Below are positions 2,808-34,796 of a stretch of DNA of 36,093 nucleotides, one piece after another. The translations under genes and the position numbers were made by a program. This stretch comes from a virus. Under the pieces are notes generated by a model that saw only the letters and a list, made by a program, of their open reading frames with translations, had not been told where the DNA came from and made no database searches. How positions within the stretch are numbered: the stretch's first letter is position 1; each line of letters begins with the position of its first letter. Where the stretch lies: positions 1 to 36,093 of IMG/VR virus record IMGVR_UViG_3300030103_002991. One strand, written 5' to 3'.

Positions 2808-3398
2808 ATGCAAAAAACTGAAATAGAATATGTCAAAACAGAGAATCTCAAAGTTTATGAAAGAAACAGTAGAATACACAATCAAGAGCAGATAATCCAG
2901 ATAGCAAAAAGCATAAAAGAGTTTGGATTTACCAATCCAATAATTATTGATGAAAATAATATGATACTAGCAGGTCATGCCAGAGTAGAAGCAACAAAGC
3001 TTATAGATAGAACTTACTTTCCAGATGTTGATGAAGTGCCTTGTATAAGGCTTAAAGAGCTAACAGAGGACAAGAAAAGAGCATATGTTATAGCAGATAA
3101 CAAAATTGCAGAAAACTCAGAATGGAACTACGACCTATATATGTCAGAGTTAAAATATTTAAATGATGTTGATTTTGATTTAACAACCATAGGAATAGAT
3201 GCTGATATGTCTATAGAGGATGCAGTATATAAACCAATAACAGATTTTAGTTCAGCAGAAGTTCAAAATTCAGATATAAATAAAGCACAAAATAACATGG
3301 CAAAAGATATAAGTAATATTCAGAAGGATAGCTCAGAAGCAGGGGTAGATGTAGTTTGTCCTAATTGCCAACATCAATTTAAGTTTACAGGTTTTTAA
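2808..3398 (+). CDS. ParB/sulfiredoxin-fold protein with C-terminal CxxC
   Basis: A 196-residue protein. Residues about 5-110 form a ParB-like N-terminal domain: VKTENLKVYERNSR, then IKEFGFTNPIIID, the GHAR box (ILAGHARVEA) and VIADNKIAENSEWN. Many phage ParB-like proteins of this type have nuclease, CTPase or modification-associated roles and often sit next to DNA-modifying enzymes. The C-terminus ends with VVCPNCQHQF, a single CxxC that could be half of a zinc ribbon completed by dimerisation. GGAG about 7 nt upstream supports the ATG. It is the first gene of the plus-strand cassette to 6233; its TAA overlaps the next ATG (TAATG). A second ParB-like gene lies at 5664. Segregation of DNA is unlikely as its job because no ParA is present here. 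Confidence 0.82.
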   Translation: MQKTEIEYVKTENLKVYERNSRIHNQEQIIQIAKSIKEFGFTNPIIIDENNMILAGHARVEATKLIDRTYFPDVDEVPCIRLKELTEDKKRAYVIADNKIAENSEWNYDLYMSELKYLNDVDFDLTTIGIDADMSIEDAVYKPITDFSSAEVQNSDINKAQNNMAKDISNIQKDSSEAGVDVVCPNCQHQFKFTGF

Positions 3399-3958
3399 TG
3401 AGAATAATTATAAGAGCAGTTCCTTCAAGAATTGAATACATAAATTATTTGCAAGAAAAATTACCAAAAGCAGAATGGATAATAGATAAAAAAGGCAACG
3501 GAGCAATGTGGTCTTACTTAAAAGCACTTGAATTGTTGAATAATAAATCAGGTATTATAATGGAAGATGATGCTTTGTTGTGTACTAACTTTTTACAAAA
3601 AATCAGTAAAGAAATATCAAAAAAACCTTTTAATTTTATTAATTTTTTTTCTATGAGAAAAGCAGATTTAGAAATAGGAAGTAGATGGTATTCTGATTAT
3701 ACTTGTAATATATGTACTTTTTTTCCTGAAGGACAGGCAGAAAAAATACTTGAATGGCATAAATCTTATTGGGAACCTGCAAACTTTGAAGGAAACAAAC
3801 CAACTTCTGCTTGTGATTTATTTTTAAGAAGCTATTTTAAAAAAAATAAAATAAAATGTTGGTTAGTAGTTCCGAATTTAGTTGACCACAGAATAGGAGT
3901 TAGTGCCATAGATAGTAGAAGGTCATCAAAAAGAATAAGCAAAACATTTAAAGGATAA
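3398..3958 (+). CDS. Glycosyltransferase-like protein (GT-A/GT25-like)
   Basis: A 186-residue protein with the segment GIIMEDDALL (residues about 52-61), a DxD-type EDD motif after a hydrophobic strand, as in GT-A glycosyltransferases of the LPS (GT25) type. An N-terminal strand (MRIIIRAVPSR) and the C-terminal segment VPNLVDHRIG also resemble small phage glycosyltransferases, where VDH and the following basic tail are common. It would transfer a sugar from a nucleotide-sugar donor; the acceptor may be phage DNA or a host surface glycan and cannot be told from sequence. It is coupled to the upstream ParB-like gene by a TAATG overlap, and the next gene begins 1 nt after its stop. The fold call is reasonable and the substrate is unknown. 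Confidence 0.65.
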   Translation: MRIIIRAVPSRIEYINYLQEKLPKAEWIIDKKGNGAMWSYLKALELLNNKSGIIMEDDALLCTNFLQKISKEISKKPFNFINFFSMRKADLEIGSRWYSDYTCNICTFFPEGQAEKILEWHKSYWEPANFEGNKPTSACDLFLRSYFKKNKIKCWLVVPNLVDHRIGVSAIDSRRSSKRISKTFKG

Positions 3959-3959
3959 A

Positions 3960-4490
3960 ATGAAATTCAAAAAAACAGATGAATTTAAAAAATTTATGAG
4001 TATAAATCCTATAGTAAAATACAAATATTTAAATTTGCCTCAAAATATGATTAATCCTTCAGAAGAAGAACTTAATAAAGTTATGAAAGGGAGAAAAATT
4101 AAAACATGGGGAAGGTTAAACAAACAACATCAAGGTTTAGACCCTCATTGGATATGTATTAATTTTAAAAAAAGAAAAAAAGCACCTTTGCATACTGACC
4201 CATTATATCCAAGATACTCTCATCATTTAAAAATAAGAGTAGATGATGGTATTGAATGTGGAGGGTTACCAGAAGATTATCCACAGTTTCCTAAAGGAGA
4301 AAAAAGAAAAACTATTAAAATGAAAAGAGGTTTATGGTATGTTTTAGATACTCATTCTCCACACCAAGTATACTCTACAAAAGATGGTAGTATATGGAAT
4401 TTAGCAATATCAATAGATAGTCATATAGTTTTAGATATTACAAAATGTTTAGATATGTGTTTAATTTATTCAAAAAGAGGTCTGTTATAA
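3960..4490 (+). CDS. Putative 2OG-Fe(II) oxygenase-like protein
   Basis: A 176-residue protein without a clear named family. It has features of a double-stranded beta-helix oxygenase: PLHTD with H78 and D80 as a possible HxD metal pair, then LKIRV, and later GLWYVLDTHSPHQVY with H132 or H135 as the distal histidine, followed by a short strand. The expected 2OG-binding arginine after the distal histidine is not obvious, so catalytic activity is uncertain. It lies between a glycosyltransferase-like gene and an IbrA-like gene, a context in which oxygenases often act on modified bases or carbohydrates. The start has a purine-rich AAAGGA upstream. Its 3' end overlaps the IbrA-like reading frame. 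Confidence 0.42.
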   Translation: MKFKKTDEFKKFMSINPIVKYKYLNLPQNMINPSEEELNKVMKGRKIKTWGRLNKQHQGLDPHWICINFKKRKKAPLHTDPLYPRYSHHLKIRVDDGIECGGLPEDYPQFPKGEKRKTIKMKRGLWYVLDTHSPHQVYSTKDGSIWNLAISIDSHIVLDITKCLDMCLIYSKRGLL

Positions 4491-5689
4491 AAATATATCT
4501 CAATAAAAATGTTTATGACTCTGCGATTGAAAGATTAGAATATATTTTTGATGAATTTGAAAATGTAATTGTAGCATCATCTGGGGGTAAAGATAGCACA
4601 GTTATTTTTAATCTTGCTTTACAAGTAGCCAGAAAGAAAAAAAAATTACCATTAAAAGTAATGTTCCTTGACCAAGAAGCAGAATGGCAGTCTGTTATAG
4701 ATTATACCAAAGAGATTATGTATCACAAAGATGTAGAGCCTATGTGGTATCAAGTTCCAATAAGATTGTTTAATGCTACATCCATGCAAGAAGCTTGGTT
4801 AGAATGTTGGAAAGAGGGAGAAGAATGGATGAGGGAGAAGGATGATATAAGTATAAAAGAAAATGATTTTGGTACAAATAGATTTCATGACAGTTTCCCT
4901 AAGATACTAAAGAAGTTATACCCAGAGCAAAATGCCTGTTATCTAATTGGTATGAGATGCGAAGAAAGCCCTGCAAGAGTAGCATCATTAACACAACTAC
5001 TTACTTATAAAGCAATAACATGGGGAAAGAGGTATACCCCAAAAGCAACATTTGAATCTAAAGGCTATGGTCATTATTACTTTGCTCCTCTTTATGATTG
5101 GACACTATCCGATATCTGGAAATGTATACATGACAACAAATGGAACTATGCAGATATATACAATAAAATGTATCAATATGGTATACCCCCCATAAAAATG
5201 AGAGTATCTAACTTGCATCATGAAACAGCGGTACACCAGTTATTCTTTTTGCATGAGGTCGAACCAAAAACATGGACAAAACTAACGCAAAGATTGAAGG
5301 GTATAAACCAGACTAAACATCTAAAGCAAAGCGAAATGTTTAGAGTATCTAAGCTTCCATATATGTTCAAAGATTGGAAAGAGTACAGAGATTATCTATT
5401 AGACAAATTGATTACTATACCAGAGCATCAGGAGAAGTTTAGAAAGAGATTTGCAGAGCTAGATGTAAAGTATAGGCATATGAAAAACAGAAACGATTTA
5501 TACAAGAAAGAAATACTATCAATACTATGCAATGACCACGAATTCTTTAGGCTAGAAATGTTTACACAACACAACGCACACATGATAGCTTTAAGGAGAA
5601 CAATGGAGGGTAAAGTTCACAAAGCTCACGATAAATGGAATAAATATATATGGAGTACAGAGGATGTTCAAAGACCAACCAATAAATAA
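4445..5689 (+). CDS. ibrA: IbrA-like PAPS-reductase-family (PP-loop) protein
   Basis: A protein of up to 414 residues. The PP-loop ATP-binding motif SSGGKDST (about residues 45-52) and LPLKVMFLDQEAEWQ place it in the PAPS reductase/adenylyl-transfer superfamily. The long C-terminal region with LIGMRCEESPAR, YAPLYDW-type and SDIWKCI segments and WNKY near the end is typical of IbrA proteins (PAPS reductase domain plus DUF3440). IbrA occurs with IbrB, as it does here. In E. coli the pair is known as a regulator of immunoglobulin-binding genes; its chemistry is unresolved. The ATG at 4445 gives a 46-nt overlap with the upstream gene and a non-conserved leader. A better-placed but non-canonical ATA at 4487, after AAGAGG and overlapping the previous stop as ATAA, could be the true start. 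Confidence 0.85.
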   Translation: MFRYVFNLFKKRSVIKIYLNKNVYDSAIERLEYIFDEFENVIVASSGGKDSTVIFNLALQVARKKKKLPLKVMFLDQEAEWQSVIDYTKEIMYHKDVEPMWYQVPIRLFNATSMQEAWLECWKEGEEWMREKDDISIKENDFGTNRFHDSFPKILKKLYPEQNACYLIGMRCEESPARVASLTQLLTYKAITWGKRYTPKATFESKGYGHYYFAPLYDWTLSDIWKCIHDNKWNYADIYNKMYQYGIPPIKMRVSNLHHETAVHQLFFLHEVEPKTWTKLTQRLKGINQTKHLKQSEMFRVSKLPYMFKDWKEYRDYLLDKLITIPEHQEKFRKRFAELDVKYRHMKNRNDLYKKEILSILCNDHEFFRLEMFTQHNAHMIALRRTMEGKVHKAHDKWNKYIWSTEDVQRPTNK

Positions 5690-6233
5690 TGTGATATGGG
5701 TTCCAATAGAACAAGTGCAATCCAATCATTACAATCCTAATTCAGTAGCTAAAAGCGAAATGCGACTACTGTATACATCAATAAAACATGATGGGTATAC
5801 ACAGCCTGTGGTAACAATTTATGATAAAAAGTTGAACAAGTATATTATCATAGATGGTTTTCATAGATACGCAATCATGAAAGCAAATAAAGATATAGCA
5901 GAGAGAACAGATAATAAGCTCCCTATAGTAGTGTTAGATAAGACTATGGCAGAAAGAATGGCATCAACAGTACGACATAACAGAGCAAGAGGAACTCATA
6001 GTGTAGAAGGCATGAGCAGTCTAGTCTTTGGTATGTTGGATGAGGGTATACCAGATGAGGATATTTGCGAAGAGCTAGGAATGGAACCAGATGAGCTACT
6101 TAGGTTAAAGCACATAACTGGTTTTTCTAAATTATTTGAAAATGCAGAATATAAAAAATCATGGAAAACAAAGCAGATGATACTGTATGAAAAGAAAATA
6201 AAAGAGGATAGTAAAGTGCCAGAAGGAGAATGA
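5664..6233 (+). CDS. ibrB: IbrB-like ParB-domain protein
   Basis: A 189-residue protein with a ParB/Srx domain: WVPIEQVQSNHYNPN, then SIKHDGYTQPVV, the catalytic-type box IIDGFHRYAI (about residues 61-70) and MASTVRHNRARGTHS (about 99-113). The C-terminal half is helical with LGMEPDELLRLKHITG, resembling an HTH. This is the usual partner of IbrA and is 26 nt overlapped with it, indicating coupled translation. The GFHR box and RHNRARG match IbrB rather than chromosome-partitioning ParB. It is the last gene of the cassette; 27 bp separate it from the end of the convergent GGCT-like gene, with no clear terminator. The role may be DNA- or nucleotide-related, but is not established. Confidence 0.85.
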   Translation: MFKDQPINNVIWVPIEQVQSNHYNPNSVAKSEMRLLYTSIKHDGYTQPVVTIYDKKLNKYIIIDGFHRYAIMKANKDIAERTDNKLPIVVLDKTMAERMASTVRHNRARGTHSVEGMSSLVFGMLDEGIPDEDICEELGMEPDELLRLKHITGFSKLFENAEYKKSWKTKQMILYEKKIKEDSKVPEGE

Positions 6234-6259: not shown

Positions 6260-6682
6260 CTAGAAATTACGAAAATATGGGGATAAATTGTCTTTTCTAG
6301 CCATCTCAAGGAATTTTGTATTTAAATTGAAATCTTTGTATCCCTGCAAGATAGTATCATAATATCCTTGATACGGAGGTGCAAAGTTAGTTCTATTCAT
6401 TTGATAAGTAAGAACTTCCTTGCCATTCATTTTGAAATATAACTTTTGATACAATGTTGGAAATCCTTCATAGATATCTAAAGCTTTTTCACAGTCTTTG
6501 GTAATTTCCCAAAGTCCTGCTGATAACATACTATCCTTGCAAGGCATAATGTCAGCTACACCTCTGAAAACTAACTTCCATTGGTCGACCACTATGCCTT
6601 CTAGTGGTTTTGCTTTTGGACATCTGACACCCATCTGTTTGATATTAAGATTACTTCCATATGCTAAATATAACTTACTCAT
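6260..6682 (-). CDS. Gamma-glutamylcyclotransferase-like (GGCT/AIG2) protein
   Basis: A 140-residue protein of the normal length for the GGCT-like family. The N-terminal LYLAYGSNL (residues 4-12) is the substrate-binding YGSN loop, and LDIYEGFPTLY (about 69-78) has the expected catalytic glutamate E72. Members release 5-oxoproline from gamma-glutamyl peptides or gamma-glutamylamines. The ATG lies 1 nt beyond the stop of the upstream amidoligase gene, with GGAG about 11 nt before it, so the two are co-translated from one message. This pairing suggests that one enzyme builds a glutamyl or amide linkage and the other removes it. The cellular substrate is unknown. It ends convergently against the IbrB-like gene. 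Confidence 0.85.
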   Translation of the reverse strand: MSKLYLAYGSNLNIKQMGVRCPKAKPLEGIVVDQWKLVFRGVADIMPCKDSMLSAGLWEITKDCEKALDIYEGFPTLYQKLYFKMNGKEVLTYQMNRTNFAPPYQGYYDTILQGYKDFNLNTKFLEMARKDNLSPYFRNF

Positions 6683-6683
6683 G

Positions 6684-7691
6684 TTATGCTCTCCTCAATT
6701 GTGTAGCTCTCATTTCAAAGAACTCTTTTACATACTCTGGTTGTCCTGCCATCAATGAACTATCTTGAGCATTTTCATTTGAAAATCCAAGATTAGATAT
6801 CCAAGTATTGAATTTATCAACAATTAAGGAAGATTCATTGTAAAGAGTTTCAAGAAAAGTATGAGTATAATAAAAAGTTTCTCCAGAATTATTAATGACT
6901 TTCCATCTGCCACCTCCATGATACTTCATTTTTCCCCCTGCTAAAGCAACTTGCTCTCTGAGAGAAGCATAGTTTTTACTTTTAGCTCTTGGTCTGTATG
7001 AAGCACTAAAAGAAAAAGAATTTTTAAGCTTTGATGATTGCTCAACAAAATTTTGTAAGAACTCAATCCAATTAGCAATCTTGTTATAGTCTGTAGTTCC
7101 AGAATGTTGTCTGAATTCTATAGTCTTGTATCTTCCGTAAGATTGAACATTAACTTTTGAATATCTAGTATGAGAACAATTTAAGATAGCATTTGCTAAA
7201 TCTTCATAAGTATCTTCCATTGCATCTAATCTAGCTAATCTCTGAGCATTAAAAGTACTAGCAATGCTCCCACACATACTATTAGTATTTGCTCTTCTAC
7301 TAATTGGCATCCAACTATCAATCATAGACTCATTATCTTGGTATCTCTTGATAACAAAATACATATCTTTGCTTGATAAATTTTTTGCTTCAATGTGAAC
7401 ATGAATTCCACATGAACGATTTACTTGGTCCATGTCTGAATTTCTTTTAGAAGCAGATATTGCCTTAGTTGCTTTCTTGATTGCAAGTAATCCTTCCTCG
7501 CCTTCAAGTATTGGAGAAACTAATTCATATCCCCCTCTTACTGAAGCATCAGTAACAATCTTCCAATGGCTAGTAGTTCTGTGATTATATCCTTCATACT
7601 CACAAGATAATCCTTGCTCTCTCATTGCAGTAACTAGCTTTTGTCTGTTTGTGTTGACTACTTCTATTTCAATTCCAAATCTTCTAAACAT
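6684..7691 (-). CDS. Glutamine-synthetase-like amidoligase (Amidoligase_2 type)
   Basis: A 335-residue protein with the amidoligase signature: FGIEIEVV (residues 4-11, metal-binding GxExE), TDASVRGGYELVSP, CGIHVHIEA (about 109-117) and KTIEFRQHSGTTD (about 195-207). These ligases form amide bonds between a carboxylate and an amine using ATP. The C-terminal 110 residues are basic and not recognised. I place the start at 7691 rather than at the upstream in-frame start at 7799, because a shared leader with AAAGGGG lies just before this ATG and the upstream 36 codons overlap the promoter. It is the first gene of a two-gene operon with the GGCT-like gene and is divergent from the terminase operon. 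Confidence 0.85.
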   Translation of the reverse strand: MFRRFGIEIEVVNTNRQKLVTAMREQGLSCEYEGYNHRTTSHWKIVTDASVRGGYELVSPILEGEEGLLAIKKATKAISASKRNSDMDQVNRSCGIHVHIEAKNLSSKDMYFVIKRYQDNESMIDSWMPISRRANTNSMCGSIASTFNAQRLARLDAMEDTYEDLANAILNCSHTRYSKVNVQSYGRYKTIEFRQHSGTTDYNKIANWIEFLQNFVEQSSKLKNSFSFSASYRPRAKSKNYASLREQVALAGGKMKYHGGGRWKVINNSGETFYYTHTFLETLYNESSLIVDKFNTWISNLGFSNENAQDSSLMAGQPEYVKEFFEMRATQLRRA

Positions 7692-7715
7692 TTTTTTTAT
7701 CCCCTTTGTTGTTAA
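7692..7715 (-). promoter_or_regulatory. Leader with AACAACAAAGGGG ribosome-binding motif
   Basis: On the minus strand the bases before the amidoligase ATG read AACAACAAAGGGGATAAAAAAA. Nearly the same leader precedes the winged-helix gene (ATG at 15336) and the gene starting at 36047. The GGGG core is the Shine-Dalgarno. The conservation beyond the core suggests common ancestry or common regulation of these minus-strand units. Confidence 0.65.
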
Positions 7716-7722
7716 TAATATA

Positions 7723-7756
7723 ATCATAGTAATCATTTGTTTACATATGTCAACAA
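7723..7756 (-). promoter_or_regulatory. Minus-strand promoter with 20-bp near-palindromic operator
   Basis: The minus strand has -35 TTGACA (7748-7753) and a -10 TATGAT (7723-7728) with a 19-nt spacer; TACTAT with a 16-nt spacer is an alternative. Over the -35 lies TTGTTGACATATGTAAACAA (7737-7756), a 20-bp inverted repeat with nine of ten pairs matching. A closely similar element sits in the same place upstream of the winged-helix gene at 15.4 kb. Confidence 0.6.
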
Positions 7757-7835: not shown

Positions 7836-8420
7836 ATGCTACGAATCATGACGAATCAGCCTACTAAAAATAAACCAACTGCAAGTCGATTAGAAGAGAT
7901 TAGAGAGCTGTATGTTACAGGTACAGAGGATGCAACAGGAGATAGGGTATACCCATCCATAGAAAGTTTAGCAAAAGATTTTAATGTTGCTGTAGTTACT
8001 CTGTTCAGAAAAGCAAGAGAAGGAGATTGGAAAGAACAAAGGCAGATATTTGAAAAGAAATTAGCAGAAGAGAAAGATGCTAAGAAAAGAGAAATGATGG
8101 TAAAAGAATCTGTAGAGTTTGATGCTAGAAATTTAAATCTAGCGAAGGCAATGCAAGGACAGATAACCCATTTGTTAAGTCAAGGAGCAAGAGCAATAGC
8201 AAGTAATAATACAGCAAAGCCATTTAGTCCAGAAAGCTTAACAAAGTTAGCAACAGCATTAATATCAGTACAGAAGATAGGCAGACTTGCTCTAGGCGAT
8301 AGCACAGATAACACGAGGATAGATGCACAATTTAATGATGAAAACACAGCAAGACAAGTTGATGAGATACTTGAACAACTTGCCGAAGCCAAGCGAAACA
8401 GCGAGAAAGCAATACATTAA
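7836..8420 (+). CDS. Terminase small subunit (TerS-like)
   Basis: A protein of up to 194 residues immediately upstream of, and overlapping, the large terminase gene. The N-terminal third carries an HTH-like segment, YPSIESLAKDFNVAVVTLFRKAREGDW (describing residues about 39-65), typical of small terminases that recognise packaging sites. The middle is a charged helix and the C-terminal region (LTKLATALISVQKIGRLALG) looks like an oligomerisation helix. Two ATGs compete, at 7836 and 7848; neither has a good Shine-Dalgarno. A pair of direct repeats ACGAATCA (7841-7848 and 7851-7858) flanks the second ATG and may be a regulatory or packaging site. The assignment rests on position and the HTH. Confidence 0.72.
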   Translation: MLRIMTNQPTKNKPTASRLEEIRELYVTGTEDATGDRVYPSIESLAKDFNVAVVTLFRKAREGDWKEQRQIFEKKLAEEKDAKKREMMVKESVEFDARNLNLAKAMQGQITHLLSQGARAIASNNTAKPFSPESLTKLATALISVQKIGRLALGDSTDNTRIDAQFNDENTARQVDEILEQLAEAKRNSEKAIH

Positions 8421-9621
8421 TTGGCTTAGAATTTCAAGACCAAAACAAATAAGCCCATCAGGCGATTGGAATGTTTGGTTAATACTTGCAGGAAGAGGAT
8501 GGGGTAAAACCAGAACAGGCTCACAGGATATTGTTCATTATGCTTTGACAAATGGTAATACCAGATGTGCTGTGGTCGCACCAACATTCAGCGATTTAAG
8601 AAGAGTATGTTTTGAAGGAGATAGTGGTATTTTATCTATCATTCCAGAAGATTGCTACTACAGACAATCAAGAACCAGAGGATATAATAAATCAGTTGTA
8701 GAGATACATTTATACAACGGAAGCATGATACAGGGATATGCGGCAATAGAGCCAGATAGATTTAGGGGTCCACAATATCACAGGGCTTGGTGTGATGAAT
8801 TAGCTTCTTGGAGATATCCAGAGGCTTATGACCAACTACAATTTGGAATGAGATTAGGACAACATCCTCAAACAGTCATAACAACTACTCCAAGACCAAC
8901 AGAGTTGATAAAAGGGATAATGAAAAGAGATGATGCTCACATTACAACTGGTAATACCTTTGAAAATAAAGACAATCTTGCTCCATCAGCATTAAAAGCT
9001 TTCAAGGAAAGATATGAGGGAACAAGACTAGGAAGGCAAGAACTATATGCAGAGATATTAGATGACTTTGAAGGAGCATTATGGAGTTATGCAATGATAG
9101 AAAAAGGCAGGACAAGAGAGTTACCAGAAATGAGAAGAATTGTTGTTGGGGTAGACCCTGCTGTAACAAATAATGTAAATTCAGATGAAACAGGAATTAT
9201 TGTGGCAGGAAAAGGGGTTGACGAAAACTATTATATAATAGATGATGTTTCTGGTAAAATGTCTGCTGACAATTGGGCTAAAACAGCAATCAATGCTTAT
9301 TATAAGTATAAAGCTAATATGATTATAGCTGAAGTCAACAACGGAGGCGATTTAGTAGGCAGATTAATAAGAGGCATAGATAATATGGTAAAATACAAAT
9401 CTGTATCTGCTACAAGAGGAAAGTTAGTAAGAGCAGAGCCTATATCAGCATTATATGAACAGGGCAAAGTTTTTCATAGTGGTACATTTAAAATATTAGA
9501 AGACCAAATGTGCAGTTACACAGGAGATAGACATAAGTCGCCAGATAGATTAGATGCTATGGTATGGGCTATGACAGAACTATCATCATCTAGCAAACAA
9601 GCAATGTGGAGGATAACTTAA
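8323..9621 (+). CDS. Terminase large subunit (GTA/HK97-like)
   Basis: A 432-residue packaging motor and nuclease. The ATPase has Walker A LAGRGWGKT (about residues 55-63) and Walker B RAWCDELA with D158 and E159. A coupling motif TTTPRPT follows. The RNase H-like nuclease has VVGVDPA with D278, a middle acidic EVNNGGD segment, and DRLDAMVWAM near the C-terminus. It resembles the large terminase of alphaproteobacterial phages and gene transfer agents. The ATG at 8323 overlaps the small terminase by 98 nt; internal starts at 8362 (ATG) or nearby are possible, since the first 20 residues are not conserved-looking. It pumps DNA into the prohead through the portal encoded next, to which it is coupled by TAATG. 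Confidence 0.95.
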   Translation: MHNLMMKTQQDKLMRYLNNLPKPSETARKQYINWLRISRPKQISPSGDWNVWLILAGRGWGKTRTGSQDIVHYALTNGNTRCAVVAPTFSDLRRVCFEGDSGILSIIPEDCYYRQSRTRGYNKSVVEIHLYNGSMIQGYAAIEPDRFRGPQYHRAWCDELASWRYPEAYDQLQFGMRLGQHPQTVITTTPRPTELIKGIMKRDDAHITTGNTFENKDNLAPSALKAFKERYEGTRLGRQELYAEILDDFEGALWSYAMIEKGRTRELPEMRRIVVGVDPAVTNNVNSDETGIIVAGKGVDENYYIIDDVSGKMSADNWAKTAINAYYKYKANMIIAEVNNGGDLVGRLIRGIDNMVKYKSVSATRGKLVRAEPISALYEQGKVFHSGTFKILEDQMCSYTGDRHKSPDRLDAMVWAMTELSSSSKQAMWRIT

Positions 9622-14745: not shown

Positions 14746-14991
14746 TTACTGTTGAGATTGCACCCAAGTATCTACTTCATCAGCATTTTCAAAATCATCA
14801 GCCTCAACATACCCTTCTTGTTTATTTATTTCTTTATCTCTTTCCAATCTATTTAATCTTATTGTAATTTTTTCTAAAGCATTAGTAAGTAACTTGTTTT
14901 GTGCTTGTAATCCGTCTATCTTAATTAATAATTTTTCTGTATTATTATTTGCTTCTCTTATCTCTTGCATTATATCATCATTGTTATACAT
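14746..14991 (-). CDS. Small coiled-coil protein with acidic EADDFENA tail
   Basis: An 81-residue protein. I place the start at 14991 because AGGGAT lies just before this ATG. An upstream in-frame ATG at 15024 would run the coding region through the GC-rich hairpin. Residues about 5-50 are a heptad-type coiled coil (EIREANNNTEKLLIKID, LLTNALEKITIRLNRLE). The C-terminus has EADDFENADE, shared with the otherwise unrelated protein at 35644-35844. The function is unknown. It is the second gene of a minus-strand island inside the late region, downstream of the winged-helix gene. Confidence 0.7.
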   Translation of the reverse strand: MYNNDDIMQEIREANNNTEKLLIKIDGLQAQNKLLTNALEKITIRLNRLERDKEINKQEGYVEADDFENADEVDTWVQSQQ

Positions 14992-15011
14992 TTTTTTATC
15001 CCTATAGTTGT

Positions 15012-15029
15012 GGGGGATTTTCATCCCCC
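15012..15029 (-). other. GGGGGAT/ATCCCCC hairpin with GAAA loop
   Basis: On the minus strand GGGGGAT-GAAA-ATCCCCC forms a perfect 7-bp stem closed by a GNRA tetraloop. It lies 10 nt after the winged-helix stop and 20 nt before the coiled-coil gene. There is no T-run after it on either strand, so I read it as an mRNA processing or stability element rather than a classical terminator. Confidence 0.6.
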
Positions 15030-15039
15030 TAGTTATTGA

Positions 15040-15336
15040 TTAAAGGTCGTTGATATTGTGAAGGTCGCAATAAGCATCAATGCCTTCTTCAGTTAGATGA
15101 ACAGTAGCAGGAATATATCCATATGTATTATCTTCTGGCTCTGACCAAACTAATTCTTTTTTCTCTAAACTTGATATTACTCCTCCAACTTGCTCTTTAG
15201 TCCAATTAAGAATTTTCATAATTTCAACAGGTCCAACTTCACTAAAGTTATCTCCATGTTGATGTCTTGAAGGCTCTCCGTTAAAACATAATTCCATAAG
15301 TTTTGATTCTTTTTCTGTTATATTTATTTTTGTCAT
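15040..15336 (-). CDS. Winged-helix DNA-binding protein
   Basis: A 98-residue protein; the start at 15336 is set by AAAGGG in the leader shared with the amidoligase gene. Residues about 5-80 look like a winged helix: KESKLMELCFNGEP, VGPVEIMKILNWTKEQVGGVISSLEKKELVW and a beta-wing with YGYIPATVHLTEEG. The domain resembles MarR/PadR-like or phage regulators. Its promoter carries the same near-palindromic operator as the amidoligase promoter, so it may regulate itself and that operon. That link is inference. It lies divergently upstream of the protease-capsid operon, where a regulator could also act. Confidence 0.75.
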   Translation of the reverse strand: MTKINITEKESKLMELCFNGEPSRHQHGDNFSEVGPVEIMKILNWTKEQVGGVISSLEKKELVWSEPEDNTYGYIPATVHLTEEGIDAYCDLHNINDL

Positions 15337-15370
15337 TTTTTTTATTCCCTTTGTTATAATTAATATACGA

Positions 15371-15404
15371 ATCATATTACAGTATTGTAGACATTTGTCA
15401 ACAA
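15371..15404 (-). promoter_or_regulatory. Second minus-strand promoter with matching operator
   Basis: -35 TTGACA (15396-15401) and -10 TATGAT (15371-15376) again have a 19-nt spacer; TAATAT with 16 nt is an alternative. The operator TTGTTGACAAATGTCTACAA on the minus strand (15385-15404) has eight of ten symmetric pairs and matches the element at 7737-7756 over TTGTTGACAnATGT and ACAA. Confidence 0.62.
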
Positions 15405-32382: not shown

Positions 32383-33012
32383 ATGTGGGGAAAAGTAGAA
32401 AATAAAAAAGTAATAAAAATATATAAAAATCCAGAAATAATAAGAGATGCTTCTGGCACACAATATCCAACAGCAATATTTAATAACGATACAAGATTAG
32501 CTGACTTCAGTATTTATCCAATAACAGATGCTAATTTAAAACCAAATATTCCTATTTTATATAGTGGCATAGGAGAGTCTTATTCTTGGAATGAAAAAAA
32601 TAGTAAAATAGAAAGAACTTATAATTTTTCTCAAAAAGATTTAGCTGATGCTGATGCAGTAGATGATAAGGGAAAAAAAGTACTTGATGAAAATGGTAAA
32701 CAAGTTATTAATCTTGGAATAAAAAGTATATTAAAAAAAGAAGTAAAACAAATACAAGCTTCAATGCTTTCAAATACTGATAAATGGATTATAAGAAAAG
32801 CAGATACAGGAGATGACATTCCTGCAACAGTAGTTACTTATAGAAAAAGCATAAGAGATACAGCAACAAGTATGGAAAAAGCAATTACTGATGCAAAAGA
32901 TTTTGATGCTATAGTTTCTTTATTAACTCCTGTATTAAACTCTGATGATACAATAAAAACACCTCCTACATTGTTTACCTTTCCAGATGTACCAGATGGT
33001 ATGCCAGATTAA
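32383..33012 (+). CDS. Tail fibre accessory / assembly-like protein
   Basis: A 209-residue protein after AAGGAG. The N-terminal half is beta-rich (MWGKVENKKVIKIYKNPEII, FSIYPITDANL). The C-terminal half is helical with LKKEVKQIQASMLSNTDKWIIRKADTGDDIP (describing about 123-153) and YRKSIRDTATSMEKAI, a pattern known from proteins encoded after fibre genes in marine phages and reminiscent of fibre chaperones. It is followed directly by the lysis genes (TAATG overlap). Confidence 0.62.
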   Translation: MWGKVENKKVIKIYKNPEIIRDASGTQYPTAIFNNDTRLADFSIYPITDANLKPNIPILYSGIGESYSWNEKNSKIERTYNFSQKDLADADAVDDKGKKVLDENGKQVINLGIKSILKKEVKQIQASMLSNTDKWIIRKADTGDDIPATVVTYRKSIRDTATSMEKAITDAKDFDAIVSLLTPVLNSDDTIKTPPTLFTFPDVPDGMPD

Positions 33013-33461
33013 TGGAGTTATCTAAAAATTTTACATTAGCTGAGTTATGTAAAAGTCAAACTGCTACTAGACATAATATTATAAATATTCCAACAGAACA
33101 AAATATTATTAATAATCTAATAGCAGTATCAAATAATATATTGCAACCCATAAGGGATAACTTCGGTATACCATTTTCTCCTAACTCTGGATATAGGTCG
33201 CCAGAATTGAATCAACTTCTCGGCTCGAAATCGACTAGCCAACATTGTAAGGGAGAGGCAGTTGATGTTGAAGTTCCTACAATAAGTAATTTAGATTTAG
33301 CAAACTGGTGTGCAGTTCACTTATCATTTGACCAAATAATATTGGAATTTTATAAAGAGGGAGAGCCAACATCAGGATGGGTTCATATATCATACAACTT
33401 GGAAAAGAATAGAAAGAAATATCTTAGCTTTGATGGAAAAAAATATAAGGAGATGAAATAA
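33012..33461 (+). CDS. Endolysin, M15-type peptidase
   Basis: A 149-residue protein. GYRSPELNQLLGSKSTSQHCKGEAVDVEV (describing about 60-88) holds the M15 zinc site, with H78 and D85, and GWVHISY near residue 125 supplies the third ligand H125. These peptidases cut peptidoglycan stem peptides or crosslinks, giving lysis. There is no signal sequence, so release needs the holin encoded next. TAATG couples it to the neighbouring gene on both sides. Confidence 0.92.
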   Translation: MELSKNFTLAELCKSQTATRHNIINIPTEQNIINNLIAVSNNILQPIRDNFGIPFSPNSGYRSPELNQLLGSKSTSQHCKGEAVDVEVPTISNLDLANWCAVHLSFDQIILEFYKEGEPTSGWVHISYNLEKNRKKYLSFDGKKYKEMK

Positions 33462-33841
33462 TGGCATTAACAGCATTAATTGGACCTGCAACAAAGTTGC
33501 TTGGAAAGTTTATACAAGACAAAGATAAAAAAGCTCAATTAGCTCATAAGTTAGCAACTATGGCTGATGAACACGCACAGCAACTTGCCCTTCAACAAAT
33601 AGAAGTAAATAAAGCAGAAGCTAAAGGTAACTGGTTTCAATCCTCGTGGAGACCCCTCATAGGTTGGGTTTGTGGACTATCCCTTGCTATCAACTATATG
33701 GTTTCTCCGATATTAGCAGGTTTTGGAATTATTGTACCACAAGCTGATATGTCTGTTATGATGCCTCTGTTGTTTGGTATGTTAGGAATTTCTGGATTAA
33801 GAAGCTTTGATAAATATAAAAAAACGGACACGAAAAAATAA
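33461..33841 (+). CDS. Holin (three-transmembrane GTA-type)
   Basis: A 126-residue protein. GNWFQSSWRPLIGWVCGLSLAINYMV (describing about 47-72) is typical of the 3TM holin family; further hydrophobic stretches follow (ILAGFGIIV and VMMPLLFGMLGISGL), and the C-terminus is basic. The N-terminal 40 residues are amphipathic helix. The ATG overlaps the endolysin stop as TAATG and is preceded by AAGGAG. It would open the inner membrane for the endolysin. Confidence 0.88.
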   Translation: MALTALIGPATKLLGKFIQDKDKKAQLAHKLATMADEHAQQLALQQIEVNKAEAKGNWFQSSWRPLIGWVCGLSLAINYMVSPILAGFGIIVPQADMSVMMPLLFGMLGISGLRSFDKYKKTDTKK

Positions 33842-34226: not shown

Positions 34227-34796
34227 TTATCTAAATTGTGGTCCACTAAACCAAGCAACTAATGCCCATCTAAGTCCTTTGGTTACTTTTGTGACTCTAT
34301 GAGATATAAAGCTACTAAATAAAATGCAATCTCCCTTATCTATTTTACAAATTTGTTTTCCATTTAAAAAGAATTCTAGTTCTCCTCCAGAAAAATCATC
34401 ATTCAGAAGAATTGAACAACTAATCTTTCTATTACTTGCATCTCCAACCCCTAAATCACTATGCCAATCGTAAGCATTGTTTGGTGCGTTGTATCTTAAA
34501 AGTTGTGGTCTTTCTAATAATCCTGATAAATTATAATTAAATGTTTCATTTGCTCTTACTACTTGCTCTATCAAAAATTCATCAAGCCACATTTCTTGCT
34601 CATGTATTCTCCATACATCTACTTGTCTTATAGAAACAATATTTGATTTAGTTCCATCTGGATTGTAGACTTTACCTGTTTGATAACTTGACTTTTTATG
34701 TAAGTCTATTATTTTTCTACAAAAACTTTCATTAATAGTATCTGTTTTTGTAATTCCATGTTCTCCCCCCAAAGAAGGGGGTATGCATAAGCTCAT
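34227..34796 (-). CDS. PKHD-type 2OG-Fe(II) oxygenase
   Basis: A 189-residue protein of the prolyl 4-hydroxylase-like superfamily. YDWHSDLG has the HxD pair H112 and D114, and SSFISHRVTKVTKGLRWALVAWFSGP (describing about 161-186) has the distal H166 and the 2OG-binding R176, all at expected spacing. Such enzymes hydroxylate proteins, small molecules or modified bases using oxygen and 2-oxoglutarate; the substrate is unknown. The ATG overlaps the stop of the upstream XRE gene (ATGA), fixing the start. The first 12 codons contain a C5-(6 nt)-G5 hairpin that might reduce its translation. Confidence 0.9.
   Translation of the reverse strand: MSLCIPPSLGGEHGITKTDTINESFCRKIIDLHKKSSYQTGKVYNPDGTKSNIVSIRQVDVWRIHEQEMWLDEFLIEQVVRANETFNYNLSGLLERPQLLRYNAPNNAYDWHSDLGVGDASNRKISCSILLNDDFSGGELEFFLNGKQICKIDKGDCILFSSFISHRVTKVTKGLRWALVAWFSGPQFR

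Follow-up and report, generated by a model that had tools for sequence, protein, structure and literature searches.

Gene sets that combine an amidoligase with a gamma-glutamyl cyclotransferase (GGCT) were reportedly described in phages, including phiEco32, by Iyer et al. in 2009, a work that several later phage papers on this gene combination cite. The gene pair itself is of an already known kind, and novelty of the pair at the locus studied here is not supported, since Iyer et al. (by way of the papers that cite them) and later phage papers had described it. Both families occur together in PSA-HP1, RIO-1, phiEco32, LUZ24, and related phages (PMC5498523), in phage U17 (PMC11945000), in UFV-P2 (PMC3890496), in Terrisporobacter TPDSL_ph1 (PMC11253131), and, as phrog_2443 plus phrog_2520, in the C. 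clostridioforme LM41 prophages (PMC11318856). The published guess for such cassettes, which is a hypothesis in the papers too, is peptidoglycan modification against superinfection (PMC5498523). Word searches of the open-licence literature, which are weak evidence, returned no experimental substrate of the pair.

The window analyzed here is the complete virus record IMGVR_UViG_3300030103_002991 (36,093 bases), possibly a fragment of its genome. It shares with the "peptidoglycan modification cassette" of the phiEco32/RIO-1/PSA-HP1/LUZ24 type the same two families, the phage setting, and their close clustering. However, in phiEco32/RIO-1-type cassettes the two are joined by an ATP-grasp ligase, a glutamine amidotransferase, and a second ligase. 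The scan of window proteins matched none of the three; the contig is possibly a fragment, and some small open reading frames (ORFs) lay outside the scan. Unlike in these cassettes, the window amidoligase has an exchangeable C-terminal domain. The Clostridia prophages (LM41 phi13, TPDSL_ph1, and "Ca. Heliusvirales") resemble the window in that the amidoligase is followed by the GGCT on the same strand, in some cases upstream of the terminase, and the pair was found near the terminase in "Ca. Heliusvirales" gut phages. Unlike the window amidoligase, the related amidoligases of Firmicutes mostly stop a short way past the core, and their short C-terminus is conserved and not exchanged. The pair can also be likened to butirosin BtrJ/BtrG, a system of gamma-glutamyl protection and deprotection in which a ligase adds gamma-glutamate and a GGCT-type cyclotransferase removes it, but BtrJ belongs to the ATP-grasp ligases and modifies a carrier-bound intermediate of antibiotic biosynthesis, and none of that is present in the window.

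Results

Organization of the amidoligase-GGCT locus

The coordinates of the locus are given in Table 1. The program-called amidoligase ORF begins further upstream, at a TTG (7799), and the start was placed at an ATG preceded by a Shine-Dalgarno-like "aaagggg". As the preliminary description had it, to the exact coordinate, the two genes adjoin in one minus-strand operon, with a single base (6683) between the amidoligase stop and the GGCT start. A sigma-70-like site (10/12; TTGACA-16-TACTAT, 7753-7726) identified by consensus scan fits the pair in position and strand, such sites being common in this AT-rich region.

Table 1. Positions of the features discussed (window coordinates unless a related locus is named)
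Feature	Position	Strand	Description and basis
Amidoligase (Amidoligase_2 protein)	7691-6684	(-)	335 aa, ATG at 7691, stop ending at 6684; predicted GS/GCS-fold ATP-dependent carboxylate-amine ligase; Pfam, PHROG, AF2/Foldseek
GGCT (gamma-glutamyl cyclotransferase)	6682-6260	(-)	140 aa, ATG at 6682 to stop at 6260; phrog_2520, 2pn7 profile match; residues Y5, YGSN 8-11, and E72 intact
Exchangeable C-terminal domain of amidoligase	6753..6989	(-)	aa ~235-313; sliding windows and aa identity versus L001
Conserved C-terminal tail of amidoligase plus stop codon	6684..6752	(-)	aa 314-335, 'AGQPEYVKEFFEMRATQLRRA'
Putative promoter and ribosome-binding site of the pair	7693..7753	(-)	Consensus scan only; sequence
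Flanking cassette outside the pair	2808..6233	(+)	Pfam/PHROG matches; content replaced in relatives
Terminase small and large subunits	7836..9621	(+)	PHROG matches; divergent from the pair; same arrangement in L001-L006
~78-aa protein loci	L206 4223-4453; L243 3971-4201; L045 5762-5998; L026 5731-5970; ~60 more		Directly downstream of amidoligase

Both proteins are intact members of their families

The amidoligase motifs FGIEIE (aa 5-10), CGIHVHIE (aa 94-101), and EFRQHSGT (aa 192-199), as well as YGSN (aa 8-11) and E72 of the GGCT, are present as first described, and both family assignments were confirmed by Pfam, PHROG, or profile searches. The amidoligase matched Pfam Amidoligase_2 (PF12224) at 7e-36 (124.7 bits; cut-off, 22) and phrog_2443 at 5e-47. 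In an alignment of 47 amidoligases, G6, E8, E10, D48, E56, P60, G95, H97, C140, E192, and R194 were invariant, and the GS/GCS-type core residues (GxExE, GxHxH, and ExR) were invariant or nearly so. The AF2 model (pLDDT, 89) had as best Foldseek PDB matches YbdK (2.4e-5) and a predicted glutathione synthase (3.7e-5), followed by glutamine synthetase (GS; 1.2e-3) and gamma-glutamylmethylamide synthetase (2.4e-3). The predicted fold is glutamine synthetase-like (GS/GCS-type) at the superfamily level only, because Foldseek TM-scores were low (0.38-0.41; ~0.4 to YbdK and GS, at a probability of 1.00). Characterized GS and gamma-glutamylmethylamide synthetase form gamma-glutamyl bonds.

The GGCT matched phrog_2520, "gamma-glutamyl cyclotransferase", at 8e-24, and as a single sequence scored 20.6 bits against Pfam GGACT, just under the cut-off of 22.8. 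Since this cut-off is a statistical filter, the family was called from phrog_2520 and from the match of a profile of 20 phage GGCTs to human GGCT 2pn7 (5.5e-19), in which the human catalytic E98 is aligned to E72, itself invariant in 20 relatives. Thus, no catalytic residue is missing from either protein. Moreover, against relatives pN was well below pS for both genes, which are intact and under purifying selection; conserved catalytic residues and pN < pS together rule out a pseudogene or a broken active site. Assignment to a defence system was also considered and dropped, the GGCT having no PADLOC model and the amidoligase only a weak PADLOC match (0.0073).

The two genes are inherited together

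Starting from the GGCT, an amidoligase was found on the fetched locus for 61/81 distinct viral GGCTs (on the same strand in 60 of these 61), and it was absent in only 11 of the 81 among those with room on both sides. Starting from the amidoligase, a window-type GGCT lay directly downstream of 40 of 73 distinct genes, within 100 bp in 39 cases. The two genes thus co-occur often, whereas rare co-occurrence would have spoken against the preliminary reading. Altogether, 80 distinct amidoligase-GGCT pairs were found within 600 bp, and over these pairs the distances in the two trees correlate (Spearman coefficient of 0.667, against at most 0.175 in 2000 label permutations). Co-occurrence and co-divergence rule out chance adjacency. 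Because co-occurrence is high and the catalytic residues are intact, the predicted ligase and its putative glutamyl-bond-cleaving partner are well supported as one unit.

In the window's own marine clade (L001-L006; amidoligase identity to the window, 51-83%), the pair occupies a common location, with a ParB/PAPS-reductase module on one side, the terminase genes on the other, and both of these on the opposite strand. The pair also occurs in prophage loci of the Clostridia type, in contrast to marine chromosomes (SAR11 and others), where most of the GGCTs found have no amidoligase in the fetched stretch. The SAR11 genome loci L119, L123, L131, L159, and others carry a GGCT of the same subfamily (~46% identity) with no amidoligase nearby; that of L159 lies just downstream of a CinA/MoaB-like gene.

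The flanking cassette varies in content while the pair stays

The flanking cassette consists of a ParB-like gene, a glycosyltransferase-like fragment, an unassigned ORF with an HxD...H pattern, a PAPS-reductase-like gene, and a second ParB-like gene. In relatives its content varies, some having glycosyltransferase-like plus oxygenase-like genes and others MT-A70-type plus other methyltransferase-like genes, and the pair stays. The preliminary description had proposed that the phage adds a tag and recycles it: the ligase with its predicted glutamyl-bond-cleaving partner stood up, but not the link to this cassette, which is on the other strand and whose gene content changes around a constant pair.

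Several further features were observed. A second variable spot (3398-4490), holding the glycosyltransferase-like fragment (phrog_854, partial) and the 176-aa ORF with the HxD...H pattern, is replaced in L001, L004, and L005. The PAPS-reductase-like (DUF3440) and ParB-like genes (4445-6233) are conserved beside the pair in the window clade and form a combination reminiscent of IbrA/IbrB. Two small minus-strand ORFs in the head-gene region (14746-15375), with little or no DNA match in L001 at this position, represent another replaced cassette. An M15 peptidase endolysin is followed by a GTA-type 3TM holin (33012-33841), which may hint at an alphaproteobacterial host, and at the late contig end a minus-strand 2OG-Fe(II) oxygenase (34227-34796; PF13640, 3e-14) lies beside a small HTH protein. 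In L004 (4406-4681) and L006 (6914-7180), a small ORF overlaps the GGCT 3' end. Its product starts with a hydrophobic stretch, contains repeats rich in Asp (DRDRDNDGIRDKYDDDWDNDG), and looks like a secreted calcium-binding-repeat protein; it was not seen in the window.

The C-terminal domain of the amidoligase is exchanged between near-identical phages

Amidoligases of the marine window clade have a C-terminal domain of roughly 75-100 residues that is swapped between otherwise near-identical phages. Between the window and L001, amino acid identity was 0.90 for the core, 0.52 for the domain, and 0.98 for the GGCT, and the tail that follows the domain is 0.96-1.00 identical to those of L001 and L002 (1.00 for L001 over the last 23 residues). 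A related tail motif was found across the long-C-terminal-domain clade. In a DNA scan of the block shared with L001 (4487-14780; 341 sliding windows of 90 bp), the eight lowest sliding windows all fell in 6737-7036, whereas outside the domain segment identity averaged 0.935 (93.5% over 10 kb) with a minimum of 0.76.

The same pattern was found in other pairs. L002 is 0.86 identical to the window in the core and 0.28 in the domain, and its domain is 0.45-0.49 identical to those of L003/L005 despite core identities of only 0.56-0.57. DNA identity between L213 and L220 was 90-100% before the domain, 55-68% across it, and 83-98% after it until the GGCT end; between L210 and L244, it was 85-100% before, 40-76% across, and 98-100% after for >1 kb. 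Moreover, the domains of L220, L244, and L210 are nearest to those of amidoligases with distant cores (L068/L233, L063, and L053), and in 105 close pairs the GGCT generally tracks the amidoligase core, not the domain. These three domains, like that of L002, thus have their closest counterparts in amidoligases with distant cores, and the pattern reflects recombinational exchange of a specificity-like module and not drift. Misassembly as the origin of the mosaics is unlikely, since flanks match on both sides, frames are open, and several independent metagenomes show the pattern.

This exchange is limited to the long-C-terminus clade; in Firmicutes prophage amidoligases, conservation of the short C-terminus mostly equals or exceeds that of the core. 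Against Pfam, the domain had only subthreshold matches (e.g., NrtR winged helix, 0.0075 for L213), and assignment to a known family was dropped for want of a confident match. Domain exchange appears to be unreported for phage amidoligases. Type I restriction specificity subunits exchange short target recognition domains between conserved flanks, the remainder staying near-identical, as in the window amidoligase; protein, chemistry, and target are different, and the analogy is one of evolutionary pattern only.

A ~78-aa protein accompanies many related amidoligases

Where the window-type GGCT is absent, the downstream genes encode a GGCT of a different subfamily (e.g., L212; PF06094, 1.6e-21), a glutamine amidotransferase of class II (L249, PF13230, 2e-7; L254, PF13522, 3e-11; the remaining members were assigned by sequence resemblance), and/or a conserved ~78-aa protein, which lies directly downstream of many amidoligases outside the window clade. 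The latter family had 66 matches in the loci fetched by then, redundant copies included. None of 36 members matched a Pfam or PHROG family, and neither of two members tested matched an NCBIfam family; the structure model, a confident one (pLDDT, 94.5), has a beta-beta-alpha-alpha-alpha-beta order. In a search from one subgroup, an amidoligase lay directly upstream in 23/23 loci with enough sequence, and a GGCT lay directly downstream in all loci reaching far enough. Many of the loci have start/stop overlaps with the amidoligase, and one member, in a named Porphyromonas phage (L026), is annotated as hypothetical. This partner protein appears to be unreported.

Among window ORFs of at least 40 aa, no member was found. 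Measured from the ExR motif to the last residue, the C-terminus is short (69-87 residues) in marine amidoligases accompanied by the ~78-aa protein and a GGCT, and long (131-176 residues) in window-type amidoligases, which have no ~78-aa protein. This suggests that the protein and the long domain replace each other in marine clades. In both, the predicted structure runs from beta strands to helices. Nevertheless, replacement remains a suggestion, because profiles share no homology and Firmicutes pairs have neither; HHalign of the two gave a probability of only 0.05-0.3%, so that a fused ~78-aa protein is not claimed as the origin of the domain. PafA, a GS/GCS-superfamily ligase, likewise works with a small protein, Pup, but the ~78-aa protein has no conserved C-terminal Glu/Gln that would form a Pup-like tail, and the window, which has no small protein, is not a member of this system.

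Discussion

We propose, tentatively and at somewhat less than an even chance, a model in which this two-gene phage accessory operon forms and removes a glutamyl amide on a target chosen by the C-terminal domain. With ATP, the amidoligase would activate a carboxylate, most probably that at the gamma position of glutamate or a glutamyl residue, and join it to an amine on the target recognized by the domain. The cotranslated GGCT would then work on the shared glutamyl part and release 5-oxoproline together with the free amine, so that the product is reversed, trimmed, or recycled. GGCT cleaves gamma-glutamyl amides with release of 5-oxoproline, and since the nearest folds of the amidoligase include gamma-glutamyl-bond enzymes, formation and removal of a gamma-glutamyl amide would be the most economical scheme. 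Because swaps of the domain leave the GGCT unchanged, it is probably the shared glutamyl part that the GGCT recognizes and the variable partner that the domain recognizes. A domain swapped between otherwise near-identical phages suggests, in turn, that the target is probably a macromolecule that varies, belonging either to the host or to a competing phage, and such a target would make host takeover or exclusion of rivals the likely role. The long domain is not essential to the chemistry of the family, since many phage amidoligases, including Firmicutes prophage ones, lack it and keep the GGCT. A bolder version, which we regard as doubtful, would have marine phages shuffle the target recognition domain of the ligase in the manner of restriction specificity subunits, so that near-identical phages covalently attach a glutamyl-type group to different host or rival macromolecules with the GGCT as a generic eraser; sister phages without the domain may use instead the separate ~78-aa partner, a protein of an undescribed family.

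An unlikely alternative is peptidoglycan or cell-surface modification for superinfection exclusion, the ligase adding peptide links to the stem peptide and the GGCT removing old ones, as hypothesized for phages with the same gene families (PMC5498523, PMC11945000, and PMC11253131). A diversifying target domain would suit a contest over the cell surface. The ATP-grasp ligase and glutamine amidotransferase of the published cassette are nevertheless unmatched among the scanned proteins of the window, a record that may be incomplete, and neither protein has an obvious secretion signal by eye. Moreover, GGCT chemistry requires a free alpha-amine on the glutamyl group, and that of the stem-peptide D-Glu is blocked by L-Ala, which hinders direct GGCT action.

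The diversity of the domain could also speak against target choice itself: if a host defence or inhibitor binds the C-terminal domain, a swap would allow escape without change of target, whichever substrate is assumed. The same mosaic pattern would result, with core and tail staying conserved, but such an escape, which we consider rather improbable, needs an unknown host inhibitor binding the C-terminal domain only, and the domain keeps a consistent architecture instead of being lost.

Small-molecule metabolism, in which a glutathione- or polyamine-like gamma-glutamyl amine or peptide would be made by the ligase and degraded by the GGCT to tune host amine or redox pools, would agree with YbdK and GS as closest fold matches and with the established activity of human-type GGCT on gamma-glutamyl amino acids. 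GGCT genes that stand alone in SAR11 and other chromosomes also make a cellular metabolic role possible for this type of GGCT. We hold this to be distinctly improbable for the phage pair, as a fixed metabolite does not account for an accessory domain that near-identical phages have exchanged repeatedly, and a variable, probably macromolecular target is favored over it. Modification of virion or genomic DNA, in which the ligase would work with the ParB/PAPS-reductase/glycosyltransferase-like cassette and attach an amino acid or amine to a modified base, is very unlikely: the cassette does adjoin the pair in the window clade, and DNA methyltransferase or ParB annotations lie near it in L029, L030, and L033, but the cassette is on the opposite strand in a general insertion zone before the terminase, its genes are replaced while the pair persists, and no known DNA-hypermodification gene, e.g., a thymidylate synthase homologue, was found in the scanned window proteins.

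The amidoligase-GGCT pair has figured in phage annotations since 2009. With an exchangeable domain and the ~78-aa protein, the question of its substrate becomes testable with natural pairs of near-identical phages. Phages that differ locally in one ~80-residue domain amount to natural swap experiments, and comparing their modified targets would point to the target. The ~78-aa protein is a further entry point, since it may be a substrate, an adaptor, or a regulatory subunit. Should the domain recognize a variable component of the host or of a rival, the pair would represent a covalent-modification system with evolving specificity outside restriction-modification.
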